Origin: an uncultured Eubacteriales bacterium
Lineage (GTDB): Bacteria; Bacillota; Clostridia; Lachnospirales; Lachnospiraceae
NCBI GenBank assembly: GCA_900317515.1
Contig: ONHA01000026.1
Location: forward strand, 1 to 40,008
Length of the DNA: 40,008 nucleotides
Direction of reading: 5' to 3'
The translations under genes and the position numbers were made by a program. Position 1 is the first letter of the stretch; each line of letters begins with the position of its first letter. Shown here in pieces: positions 69-38,153 of the stretch. A model generated the notes under the pieces. The model was given only the letters and a program-made list of their open reading frames with translations. It was not told the DNA's origin and ran no database searches.

Positions 69-673
69 CGTATGCTCCTTCCTTTTATGATCCAGTTATC
101 CAGAAACTGCATTTGCTCATCCGTGTGAAACCAGTGTTCTCCGCCGTCCATCACGGTTAATTCGGCGCCATGAGCCTTTGCAAATGCAGTGATCGTTTCA
201 TGCGATGTCAGGTTATCCCGGCTGCCATACAGGATCCTGGTCGGAACAGTCCATGAGGCAGGATGCTCGCGGACATAACACAGGTACTCCCAGGACAGAT
301 CTTCGCCGAACGAAGTGGGGATCACGCCTTTCTCTTTCAGTTCTCTCTCCGTTACATTGGCCCAGGACATCATGTTCAGGATCAGCTGCTCCATATCAAC
401 AACAGGAGAAATGAAATATGCGCTGCAGATCATCGCATCGATTCCGGCATTCATGCTGAAAAACGCGCCGATACTGTTGGCGATCAGATCGATACTGTCA
501 TATTTCGCTTTCAGTTTTATGACTGCCTCCCGGATTTCCTTCCCGGTTTCCCATGGTGTAAAGGTCTGATAATCCAATCCAATAACTTCACATTCAGGAA
601 ATAGCGGCATATAAAATTCGCTTTCCCCGGCACTGCCACCCTTGCCTTGGATATACAATACCACCTCATTCAT
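65..673 (-). CDS. Small alpha/beta hydrolase
   Basis: A 202-residue protein with the layout of a minimal alpha/beta hydrolase. An N-terminal strand (VVLYIQGKGG) carries the oxyanion loop. The nucleophile elbow NSIGAF supplies the serine near residue 68, the YGSRDNLT segment near residue 150 the probable acid, and GGEHWFH near residue 178 the histidine. The elbow departs from GxSxG in its first glycine, as in some small serine hydrolases. There is no signal peptide, so it is cytosolic. The substrate is unknown. I chose the ATG at 673 (MNEVV) because the tripeptide before it adds little; an ATG two codons upstream (679) is an alternative. The stop overlaps the start of the FMN reductase gene, suggesting one operon. 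Confidence 0.75.
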   Translation of the reverse strand: MNEVVLYIQGKGGSAGESEFYMPLFPECEVIGLDYQTFTPWETGKEIREAVIKLKAKYDSIDLIANSIGAFFSMNAGIDAMICSAYFISPVVDMEQLILNMMSWANVTERELKEKGVIPTSFGEDLSWEYLCYVREHPASWTVPTRILYGSRDNLTSHETITAFAKAHGAELTVMDGGEHWFHTDEQMQFLDNWIIKGRSIR

Positions 674-722
674 ATGCATAATGATCCCATTTACCTCCAG
701 ATCTTTTCCTCTCGTTCTTTTA

Positions 723-1649
723 TTAGCGGTGGACGTACATCCTTGTCATCCCCGGTTCGCCGTCGCCCTGCACCATGCAGAAAAACTCCCAGCCGTAACG
801 CTCGTAGAAGCCGGTGTGGTCGGTGACAAGATAGAGGGGAGAAATGCCCTTGCTGCGCATATCCTCTACCACTATGTTCAGCAGCCGTCCGGCGATCCCC
901 TGTCCGCGAAAAGCCTCTTCGGTGTAAACTGCGCAGACATTGGGCGTCAGATCCTTTCGGTCATGAAAATCGTTTTCGATCACGCCCATGCCGCCGATGA
1001 TTCTGTCCCCATTCAGGCATAGATACCAGCCATATTCCGTCTCCCGGTTCAGATAAGCCGTCATGCAGTCGAGATAGGCTTGCTCCGGGACGCCCCATTT
1101 GCTGTGGAACCACGCCGCAGCAGCATCCTTCAGCTCAGGCTCGTCCCGTAAAGTTATATACTTTCGGTGAATCGCATAATAGGTCAGATCCCGCTCGACA
1201 TCCAGATAGGTCAGTTCTTTCTCCGAGAAGTGATCGAAGGTCATGCCGGACTTCTCCATCACACGGCGGGAAGCGTCATTTCCGGTAAAGAAAGAGGCAT
1301 ATACTGTTTGCATTCCTTTCTCCCGGAACAGGTATTCAAGAAACCGTCTTACAGCCTCCGTTGCATAGCCCTGATTCCAGAACGCAGAGCCGATCCCGTA
1401 TCCGATCTCACAGGAATCCTCTTTTTCATCGAAGTACAGAATAATCCCGATGAGACGCCCGGTTTCCTTCAGGCGGATCGCAAACAGTTCCTGTCTTCCC
1501 GGATAGGAGGAAAAGTCAAAGTCCTCCAATGTATCCGCATATCGGCAAATAAAGTTCTCCAGGACCTTTTTGTCATGCGAGATATTGATAAAATAATCCT
1601 CTTTATCAGCCGCTCTGATTGGGTCTATAATCAGTCTTTCAGTCTCCAT
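723..1649 (-). CDS. Tandem GNAT acetyltransferase (two domains)
   Basis: A 308-residue fusion of two GNAT N-acetyltransferase domains. The first (about residues 1-160) is of the RimJ/RimL type, with METERLIIDPI at its start and a GYGIGSAFWNQGYATEA acetyl-CoA loop. The second (about 165-308) has the motif A sequence FRGQGIAGRLL and ends in a GFYERYGWE segment typical of motif B. Each domain would transfer an acetyl group from acetyl-CoA to an amine; substrates are unknown, and fused GNATs of this sort often act on small molecules or antibiotics. The start at 1649 is preferred over an ATG five codons earlier because it sits one base after the stop of the upstream GNAT gene and seven bases after a GAGGGG site. 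Confidence 0.82.
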   Translation of the reverse strand: METERLIIDPIRAADKEDYFINISHDKKVLENFICRYADTLEDFDFSSYPGRQELFAIRLKETGRLIGIILYFDEKEDSCEIGYGIGSAFWNQGYATEAVRRFLEYLFREKGMQTVYASFFTGNDASRRVMEKSGMTFDHFSEKELTYLDVERDLTYYAIHRKYITLRDEPELKDAAAAWFHSKWGVPEQAYLDCMTAYLNRETEYGWYLCLNGDRIIGGMGVIENDFHDRKDLTPNVCAVYTEEAFRGQGIAGRLLNIVVEDMRSKGISPLYLVTDHTGFYERYGWEFFCMVQGDGEPGMTRMYVHR

Positions 1650-1650
1650 G

Positions 1651-2028
1651 TTATTTCCCCTCATATTTCATCGGTGTAAACCGGATGCCGTTCACGGTCT
1701 TTTCTTCATCGGTCGGCACAAATCCAATCGCCTTATAGAAGGGGAGACCATACGGTGAGGAATTGAGGGTGATCGTCTCGTTCGGGTAGTCTTCAAGCAA
1801 CCGTCGAAACATTCGTGTGCCAATCCCGCGCCGGTGATACCTGCCGTCCACAAAGAAAAAACAGATATGTTTTCTGTCCGGCCTGATGGCGATCTCCCCG
1901 ATCAGCTTCCCTCCATCAAAAGCACCGTAATAGTGCAGGCCGGAAAGATACGCTTCATCGTGAAGACATTTTCGGAACTCCTCTGTCCCTTCTGCAGAGT
2001 AATCCGGGGATTCATATTCCGAGAACAC
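1651..2028 (-). CDS. GNAT acetyltransferase, apparently lacking its N-terminal strand
   Basis: A 125-residue single GNAT domain with a clear acetyl-CoA loop, HRRGIGTRMFRRLLED, near residues 64-79 and a C-terminal GLPFYKAIGF motif. Family members normally have about 20 residues before the VFSEYESPDYS segment, supplying strand 1. Here the frame upstream is open for only six codons (reading QVWAWV) before a stop, and the best start is a GTG at 2028 inside the end of the MATE gene, without a good ribosome site. The residues just upstream (W-V-V-F) still resemble the family, so the gene seems to have lost its 5' end by fusion of the MATE gene onto it. It may be non-functional or translated by coupling. 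Confidence 0.65.
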   Translation of the reverse strand: MFSEYESPDYSAEGTEEFRKCLHDEAYLSGLHYYGAFDGGKLIGEIAIRPDRKHICFFFVDGRYHRRGIGTRMFRRLLEDYPNETITLNSSPYGLPFYKAIGFVPTDEEKTVNGIRFTPMKYEGK

Positions 2029-3415
2029 GACCCACGCCCATACCTGTCAGGTTCTTAAGCCAGCGTTCCTTCTTCAGCCAGATATGGAATATCACGACTT
2101 TAATCAGGTCAATGAGTTTCACACAACCGTACATACCAACCGGCCCGATCATTGTAAACTTACCAAGCAGGATCACCATCGGGATCATCACCAACAATGT
2201 AAGCAATGAATCCGCATAAGCTCCCATAGCCGTGTCCCCTCCTGCTCTGGCCACAGCCTGTTGGGTATTCATATAAACCCACAGCGGCATGAACGCCGCC
2301 ATCAGGATAACCATACTTCGGCAGATAGCGACTGCGCTCCTGCTGAGCTTACCGAAAACAAGCGGGACAATCAGCGTCGTTCCGAACCCGAAGGCCATCA
2401 TTACAAGACCGAACACGACAGCTCCGGACAGCAGCCAGGTTTTTTCTTCCCTGGCTCTTTCCAGTTCCCCGGCACCCAGTGTTTTCCCGATAACCACACC
2501 AGTCGCAGAATAGATCCCGCCGAATGCCACGAAAAACAGATTAGCGATCGCAAAGCCCGAAGCCATGCCCGACACTACATCCGCTCCTCCTCTTCCGTTA
2601 TAAACAGCGGTTGTGATGGTTTCAGAGATCGCCCAGACCATCTCACAGAACAGAACAAGGAATCCTTTCACGAGTGTTTCGCGGAATTGTATCCGGTTGA
2701 TTTTCAGGAAATCAGCAGCCTTCACGGCAAATTCAGGCTTTGTACGGATGTAAATCACTACAAATATTGTTAATTCCAGTGCCCTTGCAATCACTGTAGC
2801 CAGCGCAGCCCCTTCGACGCCCATCTTCGGGAAACCCAGGTGCCCATAGATCAGCAGCCAGTTTAGTATTGTGTTGGTTAACGTAGCAGCGATAGTTACA
2901 TACAGAGGGATTCGGACCTTCCCTATGTCTCGAAGCGAACTGGCAATGCTTATTGATATAGTCACCGGAATACCTGTGAAGAACATAATGCGGATATATT
3001 TCACCGCTTCGTCCAGAATCGGTCCCGCCTGACTGTTTCCGACCAGCATCAGTGACAGCACCTGCCGCGGAAATGTCATACACACCAGGTAATACGGAAC
3101 AAATGCAGCAAGACCCATAATAAGCTTGTAACGGAAAGCCTGTCCCATTCCCTCACGGTTCCTGGCTCCATAAAACTGCGTCATAAAAATGCCGCCCGTC
3201 ATGCATATCGCATTGAGAAAAACCATAAACACAAACAGCAGCTGCCCGGCGACATTTACTCCGGACATAGACACATCCCCTAATCCGGAAACCATAAAAT
3301 TGTCAATAAGGGATACCAGGCTCTGGATCAGCTGCTGCAGCATGATCGGCACAGCAATGACCAGGGCATTTTTATAAAACATACCGGAACCGAATAGTCT
3401 GCTCCTGTAATTCAT
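2012..3415 (-). CDS. MATE family multidrug exporter
   Basis: A 467-residue polytopic membrane protein with about twelve hydrophobic segments and the two-fold MatE arrangement. The first repeat opens with IMLQQLIQSLVSLIDNFMVSGLG and the second begins near residue 240. MATE proteins expel cationic drugs or metabolites in exchange for Na+ or H+. The start at ATG 3415 is preferred to a TTG nine codons upstream that has no Shine-Dalgarno site; a GAGAGG lies about 15 bases before the ATG, further than ideal. The last codons overlap the 5' end of the truncated GNAT gene, and the C-terminal tail (MGVGRVLGI) is read from that DNA in another frame. The promoter carries the same operator word as the tetR promoter, so it is probably repressed by the TetR protein. 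Confidence 0.88.
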   Translation of the reverse strand: MNYRSRLFGSGMFYKNALVIAVPIMLQQLIQSLVSLIDNFMVSGLGDVSMSGVNVAGQLLFVFMVFLNAICMTGGIFMTQFYGARNREGMGQAFRYKLIMGLAAFVPYYLVCMTFPRQVLSLMLVGNSQAGPILDEAVKYIRIMFFTGIPVTISISIASSLRDIGKVRIPLYVTIAATLTNTILNWLLIYGHLGFPKMGVEGAALATVIARALELTIFVVIYIRTKPEFAVKAADFLKINRIQFRETLVKGFLVLFCEMVWAISETITTAVYNGRGGADVVSGMASGFAIANLFFVAFGGIYSATGVVIGKTLGAGELERAREEKTWLLSGAVVFGLVMMAFGFGTTLIVPLVFGKLSRSAVAICRSMVILMAAFMPLWVYMNTQQAVARAGGDTAMGAYADSLLTLLVMIPMVILLGKFTMIGPVGMYGCVKLIDLIKVVIFHIWLKKERWLKNLTGMGVGRVLGI

Positions 3416-3525
3416 TTCGTTTGACTTTAACCTCTCTTTCAAATTACATCGAATTTATGCATTCCCCATAAAACTGTCATGGAGATTGGAAAGACTTTAT
3501 TCTTCATCGCTAACCCTTCTTTAGC

Positions 3526-4308: not shown

Positions 4309-4351
4309 TAGCTATTTTTATATTTTCATTTCCATTTCACAAATCAGCGAA

Positions 4352-4590: not shown

Positions 4591-4630
4591 AAATGAAAAC
4601 AGCCCCAAGGTTTTTGCTTCCTCAGGGCTG
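4591..4630 (-). terminator. Rho-independent terminator after lysS
   Basis: An 11-pair stem (CAGCCCTGAGG with CCTTGGGGCTG, two G-U pairs, nine-base loop) is followed by TTTTCATTT. It ends the greA-lysS transcript. The T tract is also a copy of the dispersed AAATGAAAAC word in its reverse orientation. Confidence 0.8.
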
Positions 4631-6807: not shown

Positions 6808-7782
6808 TTATGAGCGAAGCCAGCCGTTAAGAACATCCTGCATCTCCTCGAAGGACATGACCTCGTTGATCCGGGCTCTGAGCCTCGAGGAGTTCTCAAA
6901 CCCCTGGGTGTACCAGGCGACGTGCTTGCGCATCTCGAGGATCCCCAGCCGGTCGCCCTTTAAGGCAAGCTGCATCCTCGCGTGCCTGAGCATGAGCGAA
7001 ACGACTTCCTCCTTCGAGGGTCTCTCCGGGATCGTCCCGTTTTCGTAAAATGAAAGGCAGTCCCGAAAAAGCCACGGATTCCCCTGGGCGGCCCGGGCGA
7101 TCATCACATAATCGCACCCGGTCTCCTCCATGATTGCGGCCGCCCGCGCGGGCGAGGTCACGTCTCCGTTTCCGATGACCGGGATCTTCACCGCATCCTT
7201 CACCCGTCTGATGATCCCCCAGTCGGCCTTCCCCGAGTAGTACTGCTCGCGGGTCCTTCCGTGGACCGCCACTGCGTCCGCGCCGGCCTCCTCGAGAGCG
7301 CAGGCCATCTCGACCGCGTTGATCTCTTCCGCGGAAAAACCTGCCCGGATCTTCACCGTGACAGGCTTCTTCGTGACCGCTTTTACCGCTTTTACGATGG
7401 CCGCCGCCCCCGGGATATCCCGCATCAGGGCGGAGCCTTCATTGTTCTTTACGATCTTCGGGACCGGGCAGCCCATGTTGATGTCGATGATCTCGCAGGG
7501 CACGTCCTTAAGCTTCTCCGCCGCGAAGGCCATGACCTCCGGATCCGGTCCGAAGAGCTGCATGGATACGGGGTGTTCATTTTCCGAGATACCGACAAGT
7601 TCCCAGGTCTTGCGGTTCCCGTGGTAGACCGCGTTGGCACTCACCATCTCCATGCAGACGAGGGCGGCGCCCATCTCCCGGCAGATCATCCGGAAGGGCA
7701 TGTCCGTCACACCCGCCATCGGGCCCAGAATAAACGGATTATCGAGCTTCACACTGCCGATCGGGGGAAGTTCACGCTTCAT
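6808..7782 (-). CDS. dusB: tRNA-dihydrouridine synthase (DusB type)
   Basis: A 324-residue flavoenzyme that reduces specific uridines in tRNA to dihydrouridine with FMN and NADPH. The TIM-barrel start LGPMAGVTDMPFR binds FMN. INMGCPVPKIVKNNEGSAL near residue 100 carries the catalytic Cys of the MGCP motif. Further FMN contacts are in VKIRAG, VHGRTREQYYSG and IGNGD. The start at 7782 (MKREL) is preferred to an ATG 11 codons upstream because GGAGGG lies five bases before it. The gene overlaps the end of the DUF6145-like gene by 11 bases and is the last gene of the argF operon. Confidence 0.93.
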   Translation of the reverse strand: MKRELPPIGSVKLDNPFILGPMAGVTDMPFRMICREMGAALVCMEMVSANAVYHGNRKTWELVGISENEHPVSMQLFGPDPEVMAFAAEKLKDVPCEIIDINMGCPVPKIVKNNEGSALMRDIPGAAAIVKAVKAVTKKPVTVKIRAGFSAEEINAVEMACALEEAGADAVAVHGRTREQYYSGKADWGIIRRVKDAVKIPVIGNGDVTSPARAAAIMEETGCDYVMIARAAQGNPWLFRDCLSFYENGTIPERPSKEEVVSLMLRHARMQLALKGDRLGILEMRKHVAWYTQGFENSSRLRARINEVMSFEEMQDVLNGWLRS

Positions 7783-8158: not shown

Positions 8159-8437
8159 CTAGATAAAGATTAAAACCACACATACGGCTGCCGCCGCGGC
8201 AAAGATCCAGCCGCGGAGCTTTAATGCATGGGTAAAAAACCTGACCGCCACCAGGATATTCAGGCAGGTGCCGAACATAAAGATCACCCGGCGGATCAGC
8301 TCAGCCTGCTCCGGCAGGATGAGCATCGCAAACACGGCCGCGATGATGAAAAATGAAAACAGCACGCACATCACGACATACAGGATCTCGTCGGCCGCGC
8401 GGCCTGCCCGCATGTCGCGTTTTTCCTTCGTCTCCAT
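8159..8437 (-). CDS. Small membrane protein with three predicted helices
   Basis: A 92-residue protein. After a charged N-terminus ([13 protein letters not shown]) there are three hydrophobic stretches at about residues 18-40, 48-66 and 74-91, and a very short C-terminal end. The ATG at 8437 overlaps the argF stop as TGATG, so translation is coupled to argF. I do not recognise a named family and no conserved polar residues suggest transport. Confidence 0.65.
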   Translation of the reverse strand: METKEKRDMRAGRAADEILYVVMCVLFSFFIIAAVFAMLILPEQAELIRRVIFMFGTCLNILVAVRFFTHALKLRGWIFAAAAAVCVVLIFI

Positions 8438-9372
8438 CACTCGCCCAGCGTCGCGACCATGACCGCCTTGATCGTGTGCATGCGGTTCTCGGCCTCGTCG
8501 AACACGACGCTCTGTGCCGATTCGAAGACTTCCTCGGTCACTTCATTTCCCTTGACCGCCGGCAGGCAGTGCATGAAGATCGTGCTGTCCTTGCCGGTCA
8601 TCTTCATGAGGTCCGAATTGACCTGATAGGGAGTGAGCAGCTTGATGCGCTCGGCCGCCTTGGCCTCCTCGCCCATCGATGCCCAGACGTCCGTGTAGAT
8701 GACGTCCGCACCCGCGACATCCCTCACATCATCGGAAATGAGGATCTCGGAGCCCGCCTCGGCCGCATAGGTGCGGGCAAGCGCGACCAGGTCTTCCGCC
8801 GGCCAGAGCTCCTTCGGCGCGATGATGGCAAGGTTCACGCCCATCTTGCCGCAGCCGACCAGGAACGAGTTGGCCATGTTGTTGCGGCCGTCGCCGACGA
8901 AGACGAACTTCTTGCCCCTGATCCCGCCCAGATGCTCGCGCATGGTCAGGAAATCCGCCAGGATCTGCGTCGGATGGAAATCATCGGTGAGGCCGTTCCA
9001 GACCGGGACGCCCGAGAACTCCGCGAGGGCCTCGACCGTCGAGTGCTTGAAGCCGCGGAACTCGATGCCGTCGAACATTCTGCCGAGGACACGGGCGGTG
9101 TCCTTGACGCTCTCCTTGCCGCCGAGCTGGATATCGTGCACACCGAGGTACTCCGCGTTTCCGCCCTCATCCTGGGCGCCGACCGTGAAGGCACAGCGGG
9201 TCCTTGTGGACGGCTTCTCGAAGATCAGCGCAATGTTCTTGTGGGCAAGGCTGGTGCCGTAGATGCCCTGCTTCTTCTTCGCCTTGAGCTCCGAGGCGAG
9301 GTCGAGGAAATACTCGATCTCCTCCGGGGTGAAATCCTTTAATGTGAGAAAGCTCCTTCCGTGCAGATTCAT
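8437..9372 (-). CDS. argF: Ornithine carbamoyltransferase
   Basis: A 311-residue enzyme joining ornithine and carbamoyl phosphate to give citrulline, in arginine synthesis or, reversed, in arginine breakdown. The carbamoyl-phosphate motif STRTR is near residue 55. HPTQ is near residue 133. The ornithine-side residues include the Asp-containing TDVWASMG segment, and MHCLPAVKG near residue 267 holds the catalytic Cys. The ATG at 9372 is preferred to one two codons upstream because AAGGAG lies seven bases before it. No other arg or arc gene is in the window. It is the first gene of an operon with two uncharacterised genes and dusB. Confidence 0.95.
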
Positions 9373-9419
9373 AATCATACTCCTTATATCCCGTGAAAAA
9401 CAATAAAAAGATAGCGGTA

Positions 9420-9448
9420 ATTATACCGTATTTTTAAGGAAATGAAAA
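9420..9448 (-). promoter_or_regulatory. Probable promoter of the argF operon
   Basis: The minus strand has TATAAT (9420-9425) 17 bases after TTTTCA (9443-9448), 48 bases before argF. The -35 box and start of the spacer are a copy of the dispersed AAATGAAAAC word in reverse orientation. No ARG-box-like palindrome is obvious. Confidence 0.62.
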
Positions 9449-9454
9449 CCCCTT

Positions 9455-9485: not shown

Positions 9486-10245
9486 TCTGTCTTTTCGCTT
9501 CGTACATTAAGATTCCGGCAGCCATGGCGGCGTTTAAGGACTCGACCTGCCCGGACATCGGAATTTTCATGAGGACGTCCGCCTTATCCGAGAGCTCATC
9601 GGTGAGACCGCGCCCTTCATTTCCGATAAAAAACGCCGTGCCTTTCCGACAGGCGGCATCCGTGTAGCTCCGGTCGCCCTTAAGGTGGGCCGCATAGGTC
9701 GTGACGCCGTTTTCGCGGAACCGCAGGAGCAGTTTATCCACATCATCCACATAGAAATGCGGCACCCTGAAGATCGAGCCCATGGTGGAGCGGACCGTCT
9801 TCGGGTTGGTGAAATCGACCGAGCCCTCCGTGAGGAAGACCGCGGTCACGCCCGCCGCCTCCGCGGTTCGGAGGATCGTGCCGGCGTTGCCGGGATCCTG
9901 CAGATTCTCGAGGAGCAGGTAGAGCGGGGAGGGCACGGCCAGCACCTTCTCCATGTCAAAGGAGGTCTTCTTCATGACCGTGAGGATCCCCTGGGGGGTC
10001 TTCGTGTCGGAGAGAGAGGCAAAGCGCTTCTCGTCGAGATCCGCGATGAGGCCGGCTCCTTTCGGCAGGGCTTTAAGCTCCGCCTCGTGCTCCTTCGCAT
10101 AGGTCTTCGTCGCAACCACGCAGACGATATCCTCCCGCGGGGCCTCCAGAAACAGCTTTCTTCCTTCCGTCACAAAAAGGCCCTGCTCATCGCGGGCCTT
10201 TTTCATTTTCACAAGGTTTTTTATGTCCTTCAGTGAGATAAGCAA
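9472..10245 (-). CDS. SpoU/TrmH-family RNA 2'-O-methyltransferase
   Basis: A 257-residue SPOUT methyltransferase that transfers a methyl group from S-adenosylmethionine to a ribose 2'-OH of rRNA or tRNA. An N-terminal substrate-binding domain (about 1-95, with QGLFVTEGRKLF) precedes the trefoil-knot domain: motif 1 LQDPGNAGTILRTAEA, motif 2 FFIGNEGRGL and motif 3 IPMSGQVESLNAAMAAGI. The length matches the RlmB/TsnR-like group; the exact nucleotide cannot be assigned. The likely start is a TTG directly after the pfkA stop (GGGAGG five bases upstream), giving tight coupling to pfkA. Confidence 0.9.
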   Translation of the reverse strand: MLISLKDIKNLVKMKKARDEQGLFVTEGRKLFLEAPREDIVCVVATKTYAKEHEAELKALPKGAGLIADLDEKRFASLSDTKTPQGILTVMKKTSFDMEKVLAVPSPLYLLLENLQDPGNAGTILRTAEAAGVTAVFLTEGSVDFTNPKTVRSTMGSIFRVPHFYVDDVDKLLLRFRENGVTTYAAHLKGDRSYTDAACRKGTAFFIGNEGRGLTDELSDKADVLMKIPMSGQVESLNAAMAAGILMYEAKRQRSLP

Positions 10246-14864: not shown

Positions 14865-14865
14865 G

Positions 14866-17166: not shown

Positions 17167-17190
17167 GATGTTGTTCTCCTTAGGAACTCT

Positions 17191-17220: not shown

Positions 17221-17221
17221 T

Positions 17222-17263: not shown

Positions 17264-17310
17264 ATACGCGAACGGGGACGTTTCTTCGCCAGGAAGCGTC
17301 CCCAAACGTC

Positions 17311-22513: not shown

Positions 22514-22547
22514 GGATCGTTTTTTCATTTCCGCAGCATCCCGGACC

Positions 22548-25526: not shown

Positions 25527-26117
25527 TTATTCCGCAGTGCCGTCCGTGTTTTCATTTTCATCGTCAAATGAAAACAGCTCATCAAACACATCTTCCCCCC
25601 TGCCGCCCATCATCATCATGGCCAGCATGGCCTGCCCCATGGGGCTGGCCGGGCTCTTTCCGCCCGCGCCGTTCCCCTTCAGCATCTCGCTCAGCATCAT
25701 GTACTTCATGATGCGGTTCATGCCTTTTCGCCCGCCGCTGCCGTTTCGGCCGAATAAAGAGACGATCTTGCCGTAGAAGACGGCGTCCCCCATCAGCATG
25801 TGGCGCTCGGGCAGGATTCTCTCCACGGAGGCATCCTCGTAGTTCACGGCGGTGATAAGATCATGGTCCGCCTTGATCACGCATTTGGGGCGGCCGCCCG
25901 CAAGGATGATGTCTCCCTCGCGGATCTTACCGGTCGGTATGAGAAAGAAGAACTCTTCCCCGATATTGAACACGAAGGAGTCACAGTTCGTGAGCTTTCC
26001 TGTCTTTGCGGAGTAGGTTCTGTAGCCTCCCGACGTCTTGATGGCGATGCTGCCGTCCATGGAGAGCCGGCACATCCCCGGGGCGATCTTTCCGAACATT
26101 CCCTGAAAAATTTCCAT
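25527..26117 (-). CDS. Uncharacterised beta-rich protein with Met/Gly-rich tail
   Basis: A 196-residue soluble protein of no family I recognise. Residues 1-120 look like an all-beta domain (SIAIKTSGGYRTYSAKTG; EFFFLIPTGKIREGDIILAGG). Residues 125-170 are low-complexity and helical, rich in Met, Gly and Lys (NRIMKYMMLSEMLKG; MGQAMLAMMMMGG). The end is acidic (FDELFSFDDENENTDG). This composition suggests an assembly or scaffold role rather than an enzyme, but that is inference. It is the first gene of the operon with the VWA protein; AAAGGAGG precedes the ATG. Two copies of the dispersed word face each other inside its 3' end. Confidence 0.65.
   Translation of the reverse strand: MEIFQGMFGKIAPGMCRLSMDGSIAIKTSGGYRTYSAKTGKLTNCDSFVFNIGEEFFFLIPTGKIREGDIILAGGRPKCVIKADHDLITAVNYEDASVERILPERHMLMGDAVFYGKIVSLFGRNGSGGRKGMNRIMKYMMLSEMLKGNGAGGKSPASPMGQAMLAMMMMGGRGEDVFDELFSFDDENENTDGTAE
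25548..25575. repeat. Perfect inverted pair of the dispersed 10-mer
   Basis: GTTTTCATTT (25548-25557), eight bases, then AAATGAAAAC (25566-25575). It lies within the coding region of the Met/Gly-rich protein and forms a possible ten-pair hairpin. Inverted pairs of uptake-type words are known in Neisseria; the parallel is only structural. Confidence 0.85.
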
Positions 26118-26285: not shown

Positions 26286-26347
26286 AGCAGGTAGCTTGTA
26301 AGAGCCGTGTAAAGTCGCACGGCATGTAAAAAAAGGAGGTATCTGAA

Positions 26348-27819: not shown

Positions 27820-29649
27820 ATGGAACAATCCAGCAAGAGGAAGGCCAGCAAATTCACGATCATGCGGAACAAGGTCGCAACGTACCTTTCAAAGCCCTAC
27901 AATGTGATCCTGCTCCTCATGGGCATTGTCCTGTCCTTCACGACGATCGCGCCGATCATCGCGATCGTCGAAGATACCTTTAAGATCCATCCCGGCACGA
28001 TCGACGCGCACCTGACCGGGCAGTCCAGCGGCTACTCCGTCGTCAACTATGTGGACCTCTTCACGTCCCGCATGGCGAAGACCAATCTCTGGACGCCGCT
28101 CCTAAACACCGTGTACCTCGCGGTCGGCACCTGCATCGTCTCGATCCTCTTCGGCGGCATCGTCGCCTTCCTGATCACCCGGACGGATCTCGCGTGGAAA
28201 AAATATATCAGCTCGATTTTCATTTTCCCCTATATCATGCCTCAGTGGACGCTGGCGGTCGTATGGCAGCATCTCTTCAACTCCAACAAGATCACCGGAA
28301 CGTCGAACGGCCTTCTGGCCTCTCTCTTCGGCATCAACATGCCGATCTGGTGGTGCAAAGGTCTCTTCCCCAGCCTTGTCGTTCTCGGGCTTCACTATGC
28401 GCCGTTCGCCTACATCCTGATCGGCGGCATTTTCCGGAATATGGACGCCAACCTTGAGGAAGCGGCCACCATTCTGGACACCCCGAAATGGCGCATCATG
28501 ACCCGGATCACCCTGCCGATGGTAAAGCCGGCGATCCTCTCCACGATCCTGTTGGTCTTCGGCAGCGCGATGGGCTCCTACCCTGTCCCGCATTACCTGG
28601 GCCTCACGACGCTGTCCACCAAATACGTCTCGATGAACTCCAAGTACACCGGCGAAGCTTCGATCCTCGCGATCATCATGATGATCTTCGGCGTCGCAAT
28701 CATGCTCTTAAACCAGCTGAGCCTGACCAGCCGCAAGAGCTACACGACGGTCACCGGCAAGTCCGGCCAGATCTCCAAGATCCGCCTCGGCCGCGCCGGC
28801 CGCTACGTGATCGCTCTGGTGCTCGTATTCCTGACGTTCTTCACAAGTATTTTCCCGATCGTCTCCTTCGGCTTCGAGACTTTCCTGCCAAACCCGGGCG
28901 ACTATTCGTTCCTCTACACGGGAGATTTCTCGAACCTGACCACAAAATGGTGGGTGACCGCGGAAAATATCACCGAGAACGGCATGTACGGCCAGATGGG
29001 CATCCTGCACAACAAGACGATCTGGAACGCCTTCAAGGGAACGCTTCTGGTCTCCCTTGCCTGCTCGCTCCTCGCCGGCACCATCGGCACCCTGGTCGGC
29101 TACGCGGTCTCCAAGAACCGCCGCGACAAATGGACCAACTACGTGAACAGCGTCGCGTTCCTGCCGTACCTCATGCCCTCCATCGCGGTCGGCGTCGCCT
29201 ACTTCATTCTGTTCTCGAACAAGTACGTGAATCTCTTCAACACCTACACGCTCCTGATCATCGTCGGTACGGTAAAATACATACCGTTCGCCTCGAGGAG
29301 CTCCCTGAACTCCATGCTGCAGCTGTCCAACGAGATTGAAGAGTCGGCGATCATCCTGAATGTCCCCTGGATCAAGCGCATGACGCGGATCATCATCCCG
29401 ATCCAGAAGTCGTCGATCATCAGCGGCTATCTGCTGCCCTTCATGACCTGCCTTAGAGAGCTCTCGCTGTTCATGCTCCTCTGCGTGCAGGGCTTCATTC
29501 TCTCAACGACACTGGACTATTTCGACGAGATGGGCCTCTATGCTTTCTCCAGCGGCATCAACCTGATCCTGATCGTCACGATTTTAATTTTCAACGCAAT
29601 CGTAAACAAAGTAACCGGAGCAAGCCTGGACAAGGGTATAGGAGGTTGA
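27820..29649 (+). CDS. ABC transporter permease, two fused permease domains
   Basis: A 609-residue inner-membrane protein made of two binding-protein-dependent permease modules, as in FbpB-type importers. Each half has about six transmembrane helices and one EAA loop that docks on the ATPase: EEAATILDTPKWRIMTRITLP near residue 211, and ESAIILNVPWIKRMTRIIIP near residue 508. In both loops the usually conserved Gly is replaced, by Asp and Asn. A 75-residue extracellular loop (about 355-410) separates the halves. AAGGAGG precedes the ATG. The ATPase starts four bases after the stop, with its ribosome site inside the last codons. Confidence 0.9.
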   Translation: MEQSSKRKASKFTIMRNKVATYLSKPYNVILLLMGIVLSFTTIAPIIAIVEDTFKIHPGTIDAHLTGQSSGYSVVNYVDLFTSRMAKTNLWTPLLNTVYLAVGTCIVSILFGGIVAFLITRTDLAWKKYISSIFIFPYIMPQWTLAVVWQHLFNSNKITGTSNGLLASLFGINMPIWWCKGLFPSLVVLGLHYAPFAYILIGGIFRNMDANLEEAATILDTPKWRIMTRITLPMVKPAILSTILLVFGSAMGSYPVPHYLGLTTLSTKYVSMNSKYTGEASILAIIMMIFGVAIMLLNQLSLTSRKSYTTVTGKSGQISKIRLGRAGRYVIALVLVFLTFFTSIFPIVSFGFETFLPNPGDYSFLYTGDFSNLTTKWWVTAENITENGMYGQMGILHNKTIWNAFKGTLLVSLACSLLAGTIGTLVGYAVSKNRRDKWTNYVNSVAFLPYLMPSIAVGVAYFILFSNKYVNLFNTYTLLIIVGTVKYIPFASRSSLNSMLQLSNEIEESAIILNVPWIKRMTRIIIPIQKSSIISGYLLPFMTCLRELSLFMLLCVQGFILSTTLDYFDEMGLYAFSSGINLILIVTILIFNAIVNKVTGASLDKGIGG

Positions 29650-29653: not shown

Positions 29654-31267
29654 ATGCCGCGCATTACACTGGAACATATCAATAAAAGATGGAATAAATT
29701 CTATGCGACCGATGACGTCAGCATGGTGATCGAGGACAACGCGTTCGTGACGCTGCTCGGCCCCTCCGGCTGCGGCAAGACCACCATCCTCCGTATGATC
29801 GCAGGTCTCGAGACGCCGACGACCGGGAAAATAACAATCGGTGACCGCGTCGTCTTCGACTCCGACATGGGCATCAACGTGCCGCCCAACAAACGCAAGG
29901 TCGGCTTCCTCTTCCAGAACTACGCGCTCTGGCCGAATATGACCGTCCATGACAATATCGCCTTCGGCCTCGCCAATGTGAAGGAGTCCATGCCGAAGAT
30001 CGATTTCGAGGCAAAGACGACCTGGCAGCTCGGCCAGGCGCTCAGAAAGCCCGCCGAGGTGAAGAAGATCGTCGAGGACTGCCGGGACAAGGACGGCAAG
30101 ATCGACGAGAAGCGGGCCCTCATCAAGCTGATCGACGGCTTCACGATCTCCATGCCGACCGCGAAGAAGCTCTTTGCCTATCATGTTGAATCCGGCAAGG
30201 ATGTCTCCGCGGAAGCGGCAAGCCTCATCAAGACCGCCGAAGCCGCCAAGAGCTCCAAGGGTTTGAACGATAACTTCGAATATGTGCAGAACGGCTCGGT
30301 CGTCACCGAGGTCCGCAAGCTCTCGAAGGAGGAGATCGACCTCGCGGTGCGCCGCGTCTCCCGCATCGTCAAGATCGGCATGTTCATGGACCGCTACCCG
30401 GCCGAGCTCTCCGGCGGCCAGCAGCAGCGTGTCGCGATCGCCCGCACGCTCGCGCCGGAACCGACCGTCCTCTTCATGGACGAGCCGCTCTCGAACCTGG
30501 ACGCCAAGCTCCGCCTCGAGATGCGCTACGAGCTGCAGCGTCTGCACGTGGAGACCGGCTCGACCTTCGTCTACGTCACTCATGACCAGATGGAGGCCAT
30601 GACGCTCGCCTCCCAGATCTGCCTCTTAAATAACGGCGTCCTCCAGCAGTACGAGGTGCCGCTGACCGTCTACAACGAGCCGGAGAACACCTTCGTCGCG
30701 GACTTCGTCGGCAACCCCTCGATCAACTTCATCGAGGCCTCCGGAAAGCAGAGCGCCGACGGCTCCATCCCGCTGACCCTGCTCGGCGGAAATAAGCTCA
30801 CCTTCACGCCGGCAGAGCCCATAAATCTCGACAAATGGTTCGCGGACCGCGACGCGGCCGCCGCGGCCGCCGCGGAAGCCCTCAAAGCCAAAGCTTCCCT
30901 GAAGGGCTACGTCGAGAAGGGCAACAAGGACGAGGTCTTCCGCTACGCGATCTCCCGCGTGGACGAGGAGGAAACTCCTTTCGATCCCTCCTCCATGACA
31001 AATGAAGACCTCCTCATCGGTGTGCGCCCCGAATTCATCGATATCGTGAAGGAAGGCGGCATCGAAGGCGAAGTCTACGGCGTCATGCCGACCGGCATGG
31101 AGACCACCGTCAAGATCCGCATCGGCGATTTCCTTCTCACCGGCGTTGTCTTCGGGAGCGATATCTTCACGATCGGCTCCCGGGTCCGGATCCGCTTCTC
31201 GGGCACCCGCGTCATGCTCTTCGACAGAAAGAGCGGCAAGCGCATCGCAAACGGCTCTCTCTCATAA
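29654..31267 (+). CDS. ABC transporter ATP-binding protein with large internal insertions
   Basis: A 537-residue ATPase, well above the 340-370 usual for this class. Walker A GPSGCGKT is at 36-43, the Q-loop at 88 (FQNYALWP), the signature LSGGQ at 252-256, Walker B TVLFMDEP at 271-278 and the H-loop at 310. The gap from Q-loop to signature is about 164 residues rather than about 50. The extra 110 or so residues (about 107-220) are charged, helical and in frame with normal codon use. A second insert, Ala- and Lys-rich, interrupts the C-terminal regulatory (TOBE-type) domain near 395-450. It powers the fused permease. A strong terminator follows. Confidence 0.9.
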   Translation: MPRITLEHINKRWNKFYATDDVSMVIEDNAFVTLLGPSGCGKTTILRMIAGLETPTTGKITIGDRVVFDSDMGINVPPNKRKVGFLFQNYALWPNMTVHDNIAFGLANVKESMPKIDFEAKTTWQLGQALRKPAEVKKIVEDCRDKDGKIDEKRALIKLIDGFTISMPTAKKLFAYHVESGKDVSAEAASLIKTAEAAKSSKGLNDNFEYVQNGSVVTEVRKLSKEEIDLAVRRVSRIVKIGMFMDRYPAELSGGQQQRVAIARTLAPEPTVLFMDEPLSNLDAKLRLEMRYELQRLHVETGSTFVYVTHDQMEAMTLASQICLLNNGVLQQYEVPLTVYNEPENTFVADFVGNPSINFIEASGKQSADGSIPLTLLGGNKLTFTPAEPINLDKWFADRDAAAAAAAEALKAKASLKGYVEKGNKDEVFRYAISRVDEEETPFDPSSMTNEDLLIGVRPEFIDIVKEGGIEGEVYGVMPTGMETTVKIRIGDFLLTGVVFGSDIFTIGSRVRIRFSGTRVMLFDRKSGKRIANGSLS

Positions 31268-31421: not shown

Positions 31422-32882
31422 ATGGAAGAAAAAACCCGCAGAACACGAACGAAAAAAAGAAAAAGAGCCCGGCAAAGGCGCATCCGCGCCGTCCTTTGCA
31501 CGCTCATCGCCGCTCTCATCCTCATCTTTGGAGTATCCCTCTTCTGGCGCGCCTTTTTAAGGCCCTCTCTCACACTCACTGCATCTGAGGCTTCCGCGGA
31601 GCTGGGGAGCGAGCCGGCTCCGCTCTCCTTTGTAAAAGAGATTAAGCACGCCTCTCAGGATGCCGTCACCGTGACAAGGACAGGCGCAAAGGAAGGTGAA
31701 ACCGGCGAGGCTGTGTTCACCTATTCCGTGAGGCAGACAAAAGGATTTTCGAAGTTCATTTCCCTGTTCCCGAAATTTATCCGCGGCGCCATCTCGCGCA
31801 GGCTCTGGGCCGAGCCGCAGGAGCTTGTGCTCAGCATCACCGACACGACGCCGCCGGTCCTCACCGTGAAAGACACGATCCCCGCGATGGAAATCGGAAG
31901 CACCCTGTCCGTCGATGCCGTCGTTGCCGCCGTGACCGATCTTGCCGGCGCGGAGATTCATTTTGCGGACGGCTCCGACTCTCTCACCTTTACGGAAGCC
32001 GGCGATATAAAGGTCGGGCTCTTCGCGGTCGACCGAAGCGGAAACCGTACTGAGGCCGATGTATCCGTGAGTGTCCTTCCGCCGGATACGACCGCGCCGG
32101 AGATTCTCGGCGCCGGCGACATCGTAATGCCCTGCGGCAGCATCTTTGAGGTGATGGGCGGCGTCACAGCCCGGGACGACCGGGACAGCGCGCCGACGCT
32201 CACCGCCGCGCCGTCCTCCGTAAACACAGACTATCCCGGCACCTCCACCGTGCTCTACACCGCCCGCGACAGCGCGGGAAATGAATCCTCCGTCCTCCGC
32301 AGGATCACCGTCGCGGAAAATGTGCTCACCGTAAACGGCGTCAACTACGCGATCCACTGGGACACGGAAGGCATCCCGCGCCAGCCCTATCTGGTCACGG
32401 TCAACCGCACTTTCAACACGGTCACAATCTATGAGCAGGACGATAACGGGCACTACACGATCCCGGTCAAAGCCATGCTCTGCTCGGTCGGTGACGATAC
32501 GCCCACCGGCTACTACCGCACGATGGAGCGCAATCGCTGGAAGGAGCTCTTCGGCGACTGCTACGGTCAGTACTCGATCCGCATAACAGGCCACATCCTC
32601 TTCCACTCGGTCCCCTACTTTGAGAAAGACCCCTCCACGCTGGAGTACGACGAGTTCAATCTCTTAGGGACCCCCGCCTCGCTCGGCTGCGTGCGCCTGT
32701 GCGTCGCGGACGAAAAATGGCTCTACGACAACTGCCCCGAAGGCTTCCCCTGCTGCATCTATGATGAGGAGACAAGCCCCGGACCGCTCGGGAAGCCCCA
32801 GGGCGTCACGATCGATACGTCCGATTCACGGCGCGGCTGGGACCCGACCGATCCGAATCCCGACAATCCCTGGAATTGGTAA
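31422..32882 (+). CDS. Membrane-anchored L,D-transpeptidase with Ig-like domains
   Basis: A 486-residue protein that would make 3-3 cross-links in peptidoglycan or attach proteins to it. A very basic N-terminus (KTRRTRTKKRKRARQRR) precedes a membrane anchor at about 23-43. Two Ig-like beta domains follow at about 140-218 and 220-296; the second (DTTAPEILGAGDI) resembles DUF5011. The YkuD catalytic domain spans about 320-446, with FHSVPY (His395) and the catalytic Cys423 in SLGCVRL. A Pro/Asp/Trp-rich tail ends the protein. The ATG at 31422 was chosen because the protein family starts with the basic segment; its ribosome site is weak. It is followed 25 bases later by a D,D-dipeptidase. Confidence 0.9.
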   Translation: MEEKTRRTRTKKRKRARQRRIRAVLCTLIAALILIFGVSLFWRAFLRPSLTLTASEASAELGSEPAPLSFVKEIKHASQDAVTVTRTGAKEGETGEAVFTYSVRQTKGFSKFISLFPKFIRGAISRRLWAEPQELVLSITDTTPPVLTVKDTIPAMEIGSTLSVDAVVAAVTDLAGAEIHFADGSDSLTFTEAGDIKVGLFAVDRSGNRTEADVSVSVLPPDTTAPEILGAGDIVMPCGSIFEVMGGVTARDDRDSAPTLTAAPSSVNTDYPGTSTVLYTARDSAGNESSVLRRITVAENVLTVNGVNYAIHWDTEGIPRQPYLVTVNRTFNTVTIYEQDDNGHYTIPVKAMLCSVGDDTPTGYYRTMERNRWKELFGDCYGQYSIRITGHILFHSVPYFEKDPSTLEYDEFNLLGTPASLGCVRLCVADEKWLYDNCPEGFPCCIYDEETSPGPLGKPQGVTIDTSDSRRGWDPTDPNPDNPWNW

Positions 32883-33564: not shown

Positions 33565-33588
33565 GATTTTCATTTTCGAAAAATAAGA

Positions 33589-35396: not shown

Positions 35397-35413
35397 TACT
35401 TATACCTCCTCTC

Positions 35414-37297
35414 TCATACTTTCGAAATAGCCTTGAATTTGCAGGAGCTCATGCAGGAACCGCATTTTACGCACTTGGATGCGTCGATCGCCATGGAAGC
35501 CAGCTTGTGCTTCGGAGCGATGTAGTCGGTCCTGGTGATGCAGCTTGCCGGGCAGTTCTTCGCGCACATGCCGCAGCCGATGCACTTGTCCGGATCGATC
35601 ACATACTGCATCAGGTTCTTGCAGACGTGAGCCGGGCACTTCTTGTCCACGATGTGGGCGATGTACTCGTCCCTGAAATGCGTGAGCGTGGACGTGATCG
35701 GGTTCGCGGATGTCTGGCCGAGCGCGCAGAGAGAGTTGTTCTTGACGGTCTGGCTGAGCTCTTCAAGCTCATCAAGATCCTTCATGGTGCCCTTGCCCTC
35801 GGTGATGCGGGTCAGGATCTCGAGCATTCTCTTGGTGCCGATGCGGCACGGTGTGCATTTTCCGCAGGACTCATCGCAGATGAACTCCATGTAGAACTTC
35901 GCCACGTCGACCATGCAGTTGTCTTCGTCCATGACGATCGCGCCGCCGGAACCCATCATGGAGCCCTTCGCGACGAGGTTGTCGAAGTCGATCGGCTCGT
36001 CAAGATACTCTTCCGTGAGGCAGCCGCCGGACGGTCCGCCGGTCTGGATGGCCTTGAACTTCTTGCCGTTCGGGATGCCGCCGCCGATGTCATAGATCAG
36101 CTCGCGGAGGGTCGTGCCCATCGGGACCTCGACGAGGCCGACGTTGTTGACCTTGCCGCCGAGAGCGAAGACCTTGGTGCCCTTGGATCTCTCGGTACCG
36201 ACGGATGCGAACTCATCCGCACCGTTGCGCAGGATGTACGGTACGCAGGCCAGCGTCTCAACGTTGTTGACGCAGGTGGGCTTGCCCCAGAGGCCCTTGA
36301 CCGCCGGGAAAGGCGGACGCGGACGCGGCATGCCGCGCTTGCCCTCGATAGAGTTCAGCAGAGCAGTCTCCTCGCCGCAGACGAACGCGCCGGCGCCGAG
36401 ACGGATATGGCAGTTGAAATTGAAGCCGGTGCCGAGAATATTCTCGCCGAGCAGGCCGGCCTCTCTTGCCTGGCTGATGGCCAGTCTGAGTCTCTTGACC
36501 GCGATCGGGTACTCGGCACGGACATAGAAATAGCCCTCGGATGCGCCGAATGCGTAGCCCGCGATCATCATGCCTTCGATGACGGCCAGCGGATTTCCCT
36601 CGAGGATCGAGCGGTCCATGAACGCGCCCGGGTCGCCCTCGTCGCCGTTGCAGACCACGTACTTCTGGTCAGCCTTTACGTTGTAGGCGAACTGCCACTT
36701 GCGGCCTGCCGGGAATCCGCCGCCTCCGCGTCCGCGGAGCCCGGATTTCATAACCTCGTCGATGACTTCCTGCCGGGTCATGGAGAGAGCTTTCTTTAAG
36801 CCCTCGAATGCGCCCATGCCGAGAGCTTCGTTGATGTCCTCCGGATTGATGACGCCGCAGCCGTGAAGCGCGATTCTTCTCTGCTTCTTGTAGAAGTTGA
36901 TCTCATCCTGCTTGGAGACCTTCTCCTTGGTAGCCGGGTCAACATAGAGCAGGCGCTCCACGACCTGGCCGCCCGCGATATCGACGTCGACGATCTCCTC
37001 GACGTCCTCGATCTTCACCAGACGGTACAGAGTGTCTTCCGGGTAGATCTTGACGAACGGTCCCTGAGAGCAGAAACCGAAGCAGCCGACGATGTTGACG
37101 GTCGCTTTGTCCGCGAGGCCTTTTGCCGCGAGGACTTCGTCAAACTTTTCCTTGATCTTGTCGGAGTGGCTGGAGAGACAGCCCGTGCCGCCGCAGAGCA
37201 CGATGTGACGCTTGCCGTCGGAGCCTGTGATCTTCTCATCGAGACATTTTGTGCAGGCCGCGGTCTTTTCATTTAACTGATCGATCGTTCCAATCAT
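35414..37297 (-). CDS. hydB: NuoF-like diaphorase subunit of the hydrogenase (HydB/HndC)
   Basis: A 627-residue flavo-iron-sulfur protein. Residues about 25-110 form a thioredoxin-like [2Fe-2S] domain (VLCGGTGCLSS; GCFGFCSQGP). The NuoF core follows: GLRGRGGGGFPAGRKW and CNGDEGDPGAFMDRS bind FMN and NAD(H). Then comes a [4Fe-4S] motif, SCGKCTPCRIG with SLCALGQT. The C-terminus carries two ferredoxin clusters (CIGCGMCAKNCP; CVKCGSCMSSC). It passes electrons between NAD(H), ferredoxin and HydA, and is the site of bifurcation in HydABC enzymes. Its ATG overlaps the stop of the NuoE-like gene (ATGA). Confidence 0.95.
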   Translation of the reverse strand: MIGTIDQLNEKTAACTKCLDEKITGSDGKRHIVLCGGTGCLSSHSDKIKEKFDEVLAAKGLADKATVNIVGCFGFCSQGPFVKIYPEDTLYRLVKIEDVEEIVDVDIAGGQVVERLLYVDPATKEKVSKQDEINFYKKQRRIALHGCGVINPEDINEALGMGAFEGLKKALSMTRQEVIDEVMKSGLRGRGGGGFPAGRKWQFAYNVKADQKYVVCNGDEGDPGAFMDRSILEGNPLAVIEGMMIAGYAFGASEGYFYVRAEYPIAVKRLRLAISQAREAGLLGENILGTGFNFNCHIRLGAGAFVCGEETALLNSIEGKRGMPRPRPPFPAVKGLWGKPTCVNNVETLACVPYILRNGADEFASVGTERSKGTKVFALGGKVNNVGLVEVPMGTTLRELIYDIGGGIPNGKKFKAIQTGGPSGGCLTEEYLDEPIDFDNLVAKGSMMGSGGAIVMDEDNCMVDVAKFYMEFICDESCGKCTPCRIGTKRMLEILTRITEGKGTMKDLDELEELSQTVKNNSLCALGQTSANPITSTLTHFRDEYIAHIVDKKCPAHVCKNLMQYVIDPDKCIGCGMCAKNCPASCITRTDYIAPKHKLASMAIDASKCVKCGSCMSSCKFKAISKV

Positions 37298-37785
37298 GCG
37301 CTCATGCCCTCCTTCTGTCTGATTTCCTCAATGATTCCGGCAACCTGGTCCGGGCTGACCTTCGGATGGACCTGTCCGCTGATGCTGACCGCCGGAGCGA
37401 TACCGCATGCGCCGATGCAGCGCAGCGCGTCCAGCGTAAAGAGGCCGTCCTCTGTCGTCTGGCCGGGTTTGATTTTCAGGATCTCGGAGAATTTGTCGAT
37501 TACCTGCTGTGCGCCTTTGACGTAGCACGCCGTGCCGAGGCAGCAGCCGATGATGTACTTGCCCTTCGGCTCCAGGGAGAAGAAGGAGTAGAAGGTTACG
37601 ACACCGTAGATCTCCGCCACGGAGATGCCGGTCTTAGCGGAGACCAGCTCCTGAACCTCGAGCGGGATGTACCCGTACTCGTTCTGAATGTCGCTGAGGA
37701 TCATCATCAGGGGCGTTTTCTCGTCCTTGTAACGATCACAGATCTCGGCGATCATTTTTGCGGCATTTTCACTAAGCTTTGCCAT
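37294..37785 (-). CDS. hydC: NuoE-like [2Fe-2S] subunit of the hydrogenase (HydC/HndA)
   Basis: A 163-residue thioredoxin-like ferredoxin. An N-terminal helical domain (about 1-70) precedes the cluster ligands in CCLGTACYVKGA and CIGACGIAPA. It completes the NAD-linked hydrogenase. The ATG at 37785 is preferred to a GTG two codons upstream because AAAGGA lies nine bases before it. It is first in a three-gene operon, hydC-hydB-hydA, with four-base and 17-base junctions. The promoter region contains a long palindrome. Confidence 0.95.
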   Translation of the reverse strand: MAKLSENAAKMIAEICDRYKDEKTPLMMILSDIQNEYGYIPLEVQELVSAKTGISVAEIYGVVTFYSFFSLEPKGKYIIGCCLGTACYVKGAQQVIDKFSEILKIKPGQTTEDGLFTLDALRCIGACGIAPAVSISGQVHPKVSPDQVAGIIEEIRQKEGMSA

Positions 37786-37859
37786 GTTCACCTGTCCTTT
37801 CTTAAATAAGGTATGATCAGCAGAAACATTTATTCAGTTACGCATTGTCTGCTAGTTTA

Positions 37860-37904
37860 TTTATACCACAAAAGACCCCGTTTTGTACTTTTAAAGATAC
37901 AAAA
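37860..37904 (-). promoter_or_regulatory. Hydrogenase operon promoter overlapped by a 24-bp palindrome
   Basis: The minus strand has TATAAA (37860-37865), with the -35 position at 37883-37888 (GTACAA, weak). The -35 lies inside a near-perfect palindrome at 37881-37904 (outer arms TTTTGTA/TACAAAA, two mismatches in 12 pairs). The weak -35 box under a palindrome suggests control by a dimeric regulator. It does not match the Rex or FNR consensus. A longer-range AGCAGA/TCTGCT stem (37819-37853) lies in the leader. Confidence 0.6.
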
Positions 37905-38153
37905 AGGTTCAACTTTGTTTATTAACTATAACTAACTCCGTAATTTCGTTTCACATTTTCCGCATTTACTGACAATTTTGGGTATGAAAAATGAATTTCT
38001 CTCCGTTTTCTGTCATATTCCCGCCTTTAAATTCGCATTTTGACCCATTTGGGACATATTTTTCGTTGGGCAACATTGCATATATTTTCATACAATCCGC
38101 CGTTATTTAGCTGATGCTAACACTGTTTTCATTGAAAGCCCTTTCATTTTTTA
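37905..38153. other. AT-rich gene-free stretch upstream of the hydrogenase operon
   Basis: About 250 bases with no coding frame of note. It is the most AT-rich part of the window and contains two copies of the dispersed AAATGAA word (37989 and 38143). Short A/T runs and a TTTGTTTATTAAC segment are present. It may hold distal regulatory sites for hydC; I see no RNA gene. Confidence 0.5.

Follow-up and report, generated by a model that had tools for sequence, protein, structure and literature searches.

The window analyzed here is a whole 40,008-nucleotide stretch of contig ONHA01000026.1, from an uncultured Eubacteriales bacterium of the Lachnospiraceae (assembly GCA_900317515.1). The heptamer AAATGAA recurs 39 times within and between its called genes, which include dnaE and the gene of a NuoF-like protein, with 16 copies on the plus strand and 23 as the reverse complement TTCATTT, and a recount placed every copy exactly where an earlier note on this DNA had put it (Table 1). 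Base composition alone predicts 2.3 copies, where that note had given about three, and the over-representation it described stands. Against a second-order Markov background AAATGAA ranks first among the 7-mers of the window (39 copies observed, 5.3 expected). The longer form AAATGAAAAC accounts for nine copies (7 + 2 on the two strands), as had been claimed, and GG precedes the A run in 19 of the 39, in agreement with the "about half" of the note. Only the count of the reversed control word AAGTAAA needed correction, from about two to three on the plus strand (17151, 18158 and 34093).

The genes were called with a small custom script rather than an annotation pipeline. Called genes account for 31 of the 39 copies, counting any overlap, and intergenic DNA for 8, so the promoter and terminator copies that the note had mentioned are a minority at most; its statement that copies occur in different contexts and on both strands holds. 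The called genes of the window contain 30 copies, whereas 500 synonymous-codon shuffles gave 3.2 on average and never more than 7. There is one inverted pair of AAATGAAAAC copies, at 25548-25575.

Table 1. Positions, strands and gene contexts of the AAATGAA copies in the window
Feature	Position	Strand	Context
AAATGAA copy	409..415	+	antisense in gene 65-577(-), FIS
AAATGAA copy	3411..3417	-	intergenic
AAATGAA copy	4325..4331	-	intergenic, GG before
AAATGAAAAC copy	4591..4600	+	intergenic
AAATGAA copy	7048..7054	+	antisense in gene 6808-7782(-)
AAATGAA copy	7576..7582	-	sense in gene 6808-7782(-), ENEH
AAATGAAAAC copy	8351..8360	+	antisense in gene 8159-8437(-)
AAATGAA copy	8542..8548	-	sense in gene 8437-9378(-), GNEV
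AAATGAAAAC copy (GGAAATGAAAACC)	9440..9449	+	intergenic
AAATGAA copy	9616..9622	-	sense in gene 9472-10245(-), GNEG
AAATGAA copy	10202..10208	-	sense in gene 9472-10245(-), KMKK
AAATGAAAAC copy	11513..11522	+	antisense in dnaE (11382-14873 -)
AAATGAA copy	12448..12454	-	sense in dnaE
AAATGAA copy	14613..14619	-	sense in dnaE, KNEE
AAATGAAAAC copy	16214..16223	+	antisense in gene 15537-16379(-)
AAATGAA copy	16519..16525	-	sense in gene 16381-17265(-), GNEY
AAATGAA copy	17020..17026	-	sense in gene 16381-17265(-), KNEH
AAATGAAAAC copy (GGAAATGAAAACC)	18681..18690	+	antisense in gene 17311-20127(-)
AAATGAA copy	18820..18826	-	sense in gene 17311-20127(-), ENEE
AAATGAAAAC copy (GGAAAATGAAAACC, full consensus)	20038..20047	-	sense in gene 17311-20127(-), ENEN
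AAATGAA copy	21104..21110	-	antisense in gene 20753-22450(+)
AAATGAA copy	22192..22198	+	sense in gene 20753-22450(+), RNEP
AAATGAA copy	22399..22405	+	sense in gene 20753-22450(+), KNEA
AAATGAA copy	22524..22530	-	intergenic
AAATGAA copy	24607..24613	-	sense in gene 24556-25497(-), ENEK
AAATGAAAAC copy	25548..25557	-	sense in gene 25527-26117(-), ENEN; faces copy 25566..25575
AAATGAAAAC copy	25566..25575	+	antisense in gene 25527-26117(-); inverted pair with 25548-25557
AAATGAA copy	26346..26352	+	over called start codon, gene 26348-27748(+)
AAATGAA copy	26639..26645	-	antisense in gene 26348-27748(+)
AAATGAA copy	27547..27553	+	sense in gene 26348-27748(+), ENEE
AAATGAA copy	28219..28225	-	antisense in gene 27820-29649(+)
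AAATGAA copy	31000..31006	+	sense in gene 29654-31267(+), TNED
AAATGAA copy	31755..31761	-	antisense in gene 31422-32882(+)
AAATGAA copy	31957..31963	-	antisense in gene 31422-32882(+)
AAATGAA copy	32279..32285	+	sense in gene 31422-32882(+), GNES
AAATGAA copy	33569..33575	-	intergenic
AAATGAA copy	37268..37274	-	sense in gene 35414-37297(-) (NuoF-like), LNEK
AAATGAA copy	37989..37995	+	intergenic
AAATGAA copy	38143..38149	-	intergenic

Abundance across the genome

The excess extends to the genome from which the window comes, a 2.72-Mb assembly of 79 contigs with 56% GC, called G000 here (G numbers denote the genomes compared, mainly members of the same genus, and L numbers stretches of G000). 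The whole assembly holds 153 + 138 = 291 copies of AAATGAAAAC and 1 + 2 = 3 of its backward control. In a 422-kb sample, made up of 382 kb of own-genome DNA and the window, AAATGAA heads the 7-mers under a third-order Markov background with 356 copies against 102 expected, and overlapping words from this motif lead the lists at length 6 and at lengths 8 to 12, an unrelated repeat word scoring nearly as high at length 12. A larger set of 458 kb contains 388 copies. We read the heptamer as a copy class of a "self" watermark that runs through the genome. The motif is non-palindromic and has the graded consensus GGAAAATGAAAACC around an AAATG core, with AAAT as the most constant part; the commonest single-mismatch variant of AAATGAA is AAATGCA. 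Beyond about -3 and +10 the flanks carry no strong signal, only faint ripples with the period of the codons and some T at -6, and no AT-rich tracts were seen 3' of the word in the flank profile. By DnaE, the named relatives are assemblies from rumen and gut labeled Lachnospiraceae, at 60 to 79% identity.

Codon use does not reproduce these counts. A within-gene synonymous shuffle of 371.6 kb of coding DNA leaves 44 copies, compared with 279 observed, and the excess is present both in sense (165 vs 31.1) and in antisense (114 vs 12.9) orientation. When both neighboring bases of each codon are also fixed within each gene, which leaves little freedom per gene, 133 copies are expected, far fewer than the 279 observed; pooling this shuffle across genes lowers the expectation to 57. 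Copies inside genes occupy all five frames that are not barred by a stop codon, and intergenic DNA, uncorrected for composition, has 53 copies in 50.8 kb. A bias toward gene ends was considered and rejected, as the counts by decile of gene length (40, 31, 32, 33, 26, 35, 25, 30, 30 and 26) are nearly flat. The shuffles and the enrichment on both gene strands, together with the conservation in relatives described below, support the view that the DNA word is itself the target of selection, as the earlier note had proposed, or of drive.

Orientation is close to neutral with respect to GC skew, with 187 copies along the G-rich strand and 159 against it in 20 of 21 stretches, the stretch with unclear skew being omitted. 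The level of the word varies with GC content. In 1-kb bins of G000 DNA, we observe 70 copies where 5.9 are expected above 60% GC, 228 where 32.1 are expected at 54-60%, and 86 where 21.2 are expected at 48-54%, or 4 to 12 times expectation. Below 48% GC (39 kb, defense islands included) the count is near background, at 22 vs 16.5. Three islands with GC contents down to 36-37% in this 56% genome (L094:3441-14000, L099:4000-11000 and L102:6500-14500) contain genes for TIR, TPR/STAND-like, type I restriction-modification and Eco57I-like methylase proteins among 10 proteins scanned, a content typical of mobile defense islands. A separate region, L246:3300-13900, is a mobile element integrated in the genome; it gave two integrase matches, and ParA- and relaxase-like genes were read by eye from its translations. 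AAATGAA occurs there at normal density.

Conservation and lineage spellings

The two close relatives G043 and G046 have AAATGAA at 83.6 and 78.9 copies per 100 kb, compared with 84.7 in G000. Conservation was compared with that of control words, in 13 non-overlapping alignments per relative of at least 300 columns and at least 70% identity, and copies of the word are kept more often. In G043 (82% identity DNA) 15 of 22 are intact, and in G046 (78%) 17 of 29; anagrams of the word are intact in 47% and 23% of cases, and other 7-mers with six A/T in 31% and 19%, respectively. The contrast with anagrams is modest for G043 and clear for G046. Taken in the reverse direction, from relative to own genome, 15 of 21 (G043) and 17 of 34 (G046) copies are intact. 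Aligned sites that lack the word differ mostly by substitutions and rarely by gaps. As a gauge of whether the copies lie in permissive regions, identity of the flanks is 0.812 against 0.817 overall for G043 (n = 22) and 0.760 against 0.780 for G046 (n = 29), both samples being too small to decide the matter.

Related species prefer different flanks around the AAATG core. Word discovery against synonymous shuffles was run on 13 genomes, those represented by under 27 kb of DNA being omitted, and repeated with more DNA in 8. The AAATGAA spelling was found in G000, G043 and G046 and, at a weaker level, in G005, G047 and G008; GGAAATGA(A/G) and AAATGCA were found in G016 and G009, and G045 has a weak, roughly 3-fold excess of GGAAATGA; in G023 the list is headed by AAATGCC words; TGCAAATG was found in G052; and the lists of G015 and G044 are mixed and weak. 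In 160 kb of G041, no AAATG word appears among the top words apart from AATGCATT, and a smaller G041 sample has a weak excess of AAATGCA (18 vs 5.4). This genus member is a closed genome, a single contig of 3.27 Mb (G041:C1), whose top words against the shuffled control are CCGGATCCGG-like palindromes and AATGCATT.

Whole-genome counts across 42 genomes of the genus show the same contrast. AAATGAAAAC occurs 291, 262 and 265 times in G000, G043 and G046, compared with 11, 13 and 10 times in G052, G017 and G003, whereas TGCAAATGA occurs 232, 254 and 161 times in the latter three and 35, 19 and 21 times in the former. TGCAAATGA is raised too in G001 (178) and G020 (133), neither of which is in the DnaE tree described below. 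GGAAATGAG peaks in G016 (258), followed by G045 (185), G049 (177), G009 (175) and G014 (165), and AAATGCCG, a weak genus-wide probe, is raised in many genomes, including G044 (587), G023 (579), G056 (558) and G001 (540). As far as sampled, the AAATGAAAAC spelling at the level of G000 is confined to the genus, because 195 other genomes of the order, none of them of the genus and searched for AAATGAAAAC only, show no comparable excess: the highest count is 74, in a genome that has 52 copies of the control, and among those with at least 40 copies the best contrasts to control are 44 vs 5 and 45 vs 3.

We placed these spellings on a quick tree of one gene, DnaE, rooted at its midpoint and covering the 30 of 42 genus genomes that gave matches with a locus (G043, G001 and G049 are outside it); 8 of its 27 inner branches are open. 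High TGCAAATGA marks one clade (support of 100 in the Shimodaira–Hasegawa-like approximate likelihood ratio test, SH-aLRT; 73 to 79 copies per Mb) and needs a single change, a number reached in 0 of 500 shuffles. G000 and G046 are sisters, with 107 and 102 copies of AAATGAAAAC per Mb, as are G016 and G009, and G041, G011 and G006, with low counts of AAATGAAAAC, TGCAAATGA and GGAAATGAG, group together. Elsewhere on the tree, G057 and G008 likewise have raised AAATGAAAAC counts. Taken jointly, the labels require 4 changes, a number that 1 of 200 shuffles matched or undercut. With one change for TGCAAATGA but three for AAATGAAAAC, a spelling is at best inherited along its lineage, and not all of the spellings are congruent with the DnaE tree.

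A possible uptake signal and its alternatives

Among the roles that the earlier note had offered, a DNA-uptake signal fits best, because of the density of the word, its small orientation bias, its lineage dialects and its near-background level in low-GC DNA, and a Chi-like site is disfavored. We put the chance that the word works like an uptake sequence, a signal of self-recognition in a clostridial anaerobe, at about one half. From the sequences we infer this function, and with it binding or uptake as the cause, the identity of the reader protein and the transformability of the organism. Uptake words are known from the Pasteurellaceae and Neisseriaceae (PMC7811141). The uptake signal sequences (USS) of the former and the DNA uptake sequences (DUS) of the latter occur near once per kb without orientation bias (PMC1626085), DUS dialects surround a CTG core (PMC3630211), and DUS are described as absent from recently acquired genes (PMC2397512). 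The clostridial word resembles DUS in that it is short, non-palindromic, present about once per kb and conserved between species, has dialects around an invariant core, and may be scarce in low-GC, probably acquired, DNA (PMC3630211, PMC2397512). It shares with Pasteurellaceae USS its frequency, its orientation neutrality, its coding copies and the existence of more than one type per group (PMC1626085). Unlike DUS, it belongs to a clostridial genus, is an AT-rich word in a 56% GC genome and has a weaker, graded consensus; only one of its dialects was seen to mark a clean clade, and its inverted pairs are without clear excess.

Candidate machinery is present in G000, where a ComEA-like protein (SLBB + HHH_3) is encoded a few genes from ComEC, and DprA is also found. 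The genome has one strong T2SSE ATPase with a T2SSF neighbor, a pair that, by length and neighborhood, reads as Tad type. In Liberibacter and in Micrococcus luteus, DNA uptake involves Tad or Flp pili (PMC8513845, PMC6370729). It is possible, though we hold it somewhat below even odds, that this is a dialect-bearing uptake system, in which a competence component, possibly carried by a Tad-type pilus, reads lineage-specific flanks around AAATG and gene exchange through transformation is channeled within species. In such a system some DNA-binding part of the competence machinery, which may be ComEA or a pilin, would prefer DNA bearing the word, with the Tad-type pilus as the candidate filament in G000; fragments from kin that carry it would enter and recombine more often; and molecular drive would spread copies at random native sites, in both orientations, wherever the protein tolerates them. 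A change of receptor in a lineage would then shift the favored flanks, giving rise to dialects with a shared core.

If this is true, sequence-guided sex arose again in a clostridial genus, transformation would seem to be an active process among uncultured bacteria of the gut and rumen, and related species, several of which have words of their own, offer material for studies of reader-word co-evolution. The word, a watermark present about once per kb in an uncultured gut or rumen clostridium and spelled differently by related species, would then resemble an "uptake password". None of the matches listed for uptake words in Clostridia, Firmicutes, Lachnospiraceae or Gram-positive bacteria concerned such a genus, in a body of literature that covered few subscription papers and no bioRxiv preprints. 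Veillonella is a genus of Firmicutes. A screen of Veillonella is reported to have found no word of at least 10 bp with at least 100 copies, and over 800 words of 9 bp (PMC5397411).

Several observations weigh against an uptake function. It is weakened because ComEC is missing in G023 and because two spellings are scattered on the tree. ComEC is found in 14 of 16 genomes and is without a match in G005 and in G023, which is 94% complete and has its own AAATGCC word; GGAAATGAG and AAATGCCG are raised in several scattered lineages, and the AAATGAAAAC type does not cluster significantly (3 changes, as low in 65 of 500 shuffles). A PilB-type ATPase was not found in the G000 assembly, and across genomes its presence does not track the motif. 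DprA is present in 17 of 17 genomes, and motif-poor G041 carries both ComEC and DprA, so these genes fail to predict the motif. In place of the ComP-like receptor of DUS there are only candidate clostridial readers, and the transformability of these uncultured organisms is presumptive. In low-GC DNA the 9-mer AAATGAAAA has 4 copies against 1.0 expected at 42-48% GC, and the 10.6-kb mobile element in L246 is undepleted, with 8 copies of AAATGAA against 2.6 expected. Slightly more copies follow the majority gene strand than oppose it (199 vs 157), and the shuffled codon background leans to sense likewise. Spacing is random and not more regular than that (mean gap 1124 bp, coefficient of variation 1.00; gaps shorter than 30 bp number 9, with 8.8 expected). 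Pairs under 40 bp apart comprise 9 in opposite and 4 in the same orientation, with 6.5 expected for each, so that frequent hairpin pairs of the USS/DUS kind are not clearly enriched. Hin-type USS genomes have more perfect than singly mismatched cores (PMC1626085); here AAATGAAAA has 114 perfect and 377 single-mismatch copies, a ratio of 0.30 for this 9-mer, AAATGAAAAC has 60 and 174, and the 3' AT-rich tracts of Pasteurellaceae USS are lacking from the profile. We do not class the word as a member of USS/DUS because it shows no excess of perfect copies, no regular spacing and no frequent inverted pairs.

The chief rival, which we consider unlikely though clearly the strongest of the alternatives, is that the word is selected about once per kb as the site of a chromosome-organizing or DNA-maintenance protein (nucleoid, segregation or SMC-like loading), or as a methyltransferase-linked word of the HIP1 kind. 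Density and near-neutral orientation are compatible with it, as are the location of most copies within genes and the failure of competence genes to predict the motif. The cyanobacterial HIP1 word is likewise very frequent with an unsettled role, and is set apart as a class distinct from Chi and uptake words (PMC4390886); HIP1 is, however, an exact palindrome tied to GATC and CGATCG methylases (PMC4390886), whereas the clostridial word is non-palindromic and graded. For a general chromosome protein, flanks that change between relatives around an intact core, and a near-background level in low-GC DNA, are less expected, though possible.

A Chi-like recombination hotspot read by AddAB/RecBCD is improbable. 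As with Chi, which is more frequent in core genes than in acquired ones (PMC8022716), the word is over-represented and relatively higher in DNA of native GC content. Chi is disfavored because clear polarity with replication, a mark of Chi sites, is missing: the 187 and 159 copies on either side of the GC skew leave polarity unclear, in assembly contigs rather than a closed genome, and the word is longer than Chi, graded, and variable between related species of a single genus.

Two further explanations are very hard to credit. An artefact of codon use, dipeptides or start-codon context could draw on Asn-Glu, the commonest reading frame (130 of 308 in-gene copies), and on the one window copy over a called start codon, but it is refuted by the shuffles (44 vs 279 in the sample, 3.2 vs 30 in the window), by the over-represented antisense copies, and by 160 kb of G041, which, run through the same pipeline, has no AAATG-type words among the eight best per length save AATGCATT-like ones. 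Spread by a mobile or repeated element would have a parallel in another dispersed, mostly intergenic repeat of G000, arrays of GGGACGGTTCT, but was rejected, as the copies share no flank beyond about 14 bp, lie at random spacing inside unrelated genes such as dnaE, and are replaced in relatives mostly by substitutions.

A second repeat and a hydrogenase cluster

GGGACGGTTCT, often as GGGGACGGTTCTCCGC, is a second over-represented word of G000 and forms palindromic tandem arrays, for example at L083:13493-13563, L184:5537-5627 and L096:529-619, among others. There are 29 copies in 458 kb of G000, 26 of them outside called genes, compared with 28 in 159 kb of G043 and 2 in 259 kb of G046. We take these arrays to resemble an intergenic repeat of the repetitive extragenic palindrome/bacterial interspersed mosaic element (REP/BIME) type.

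Within the window, the region 33630-37297 encodes an [FeFe] hydrogenase of group A6 (588 aa) adjoining the NuoF-like subunit, presumably an electron-bifurcating-type hydrogenase cluster.

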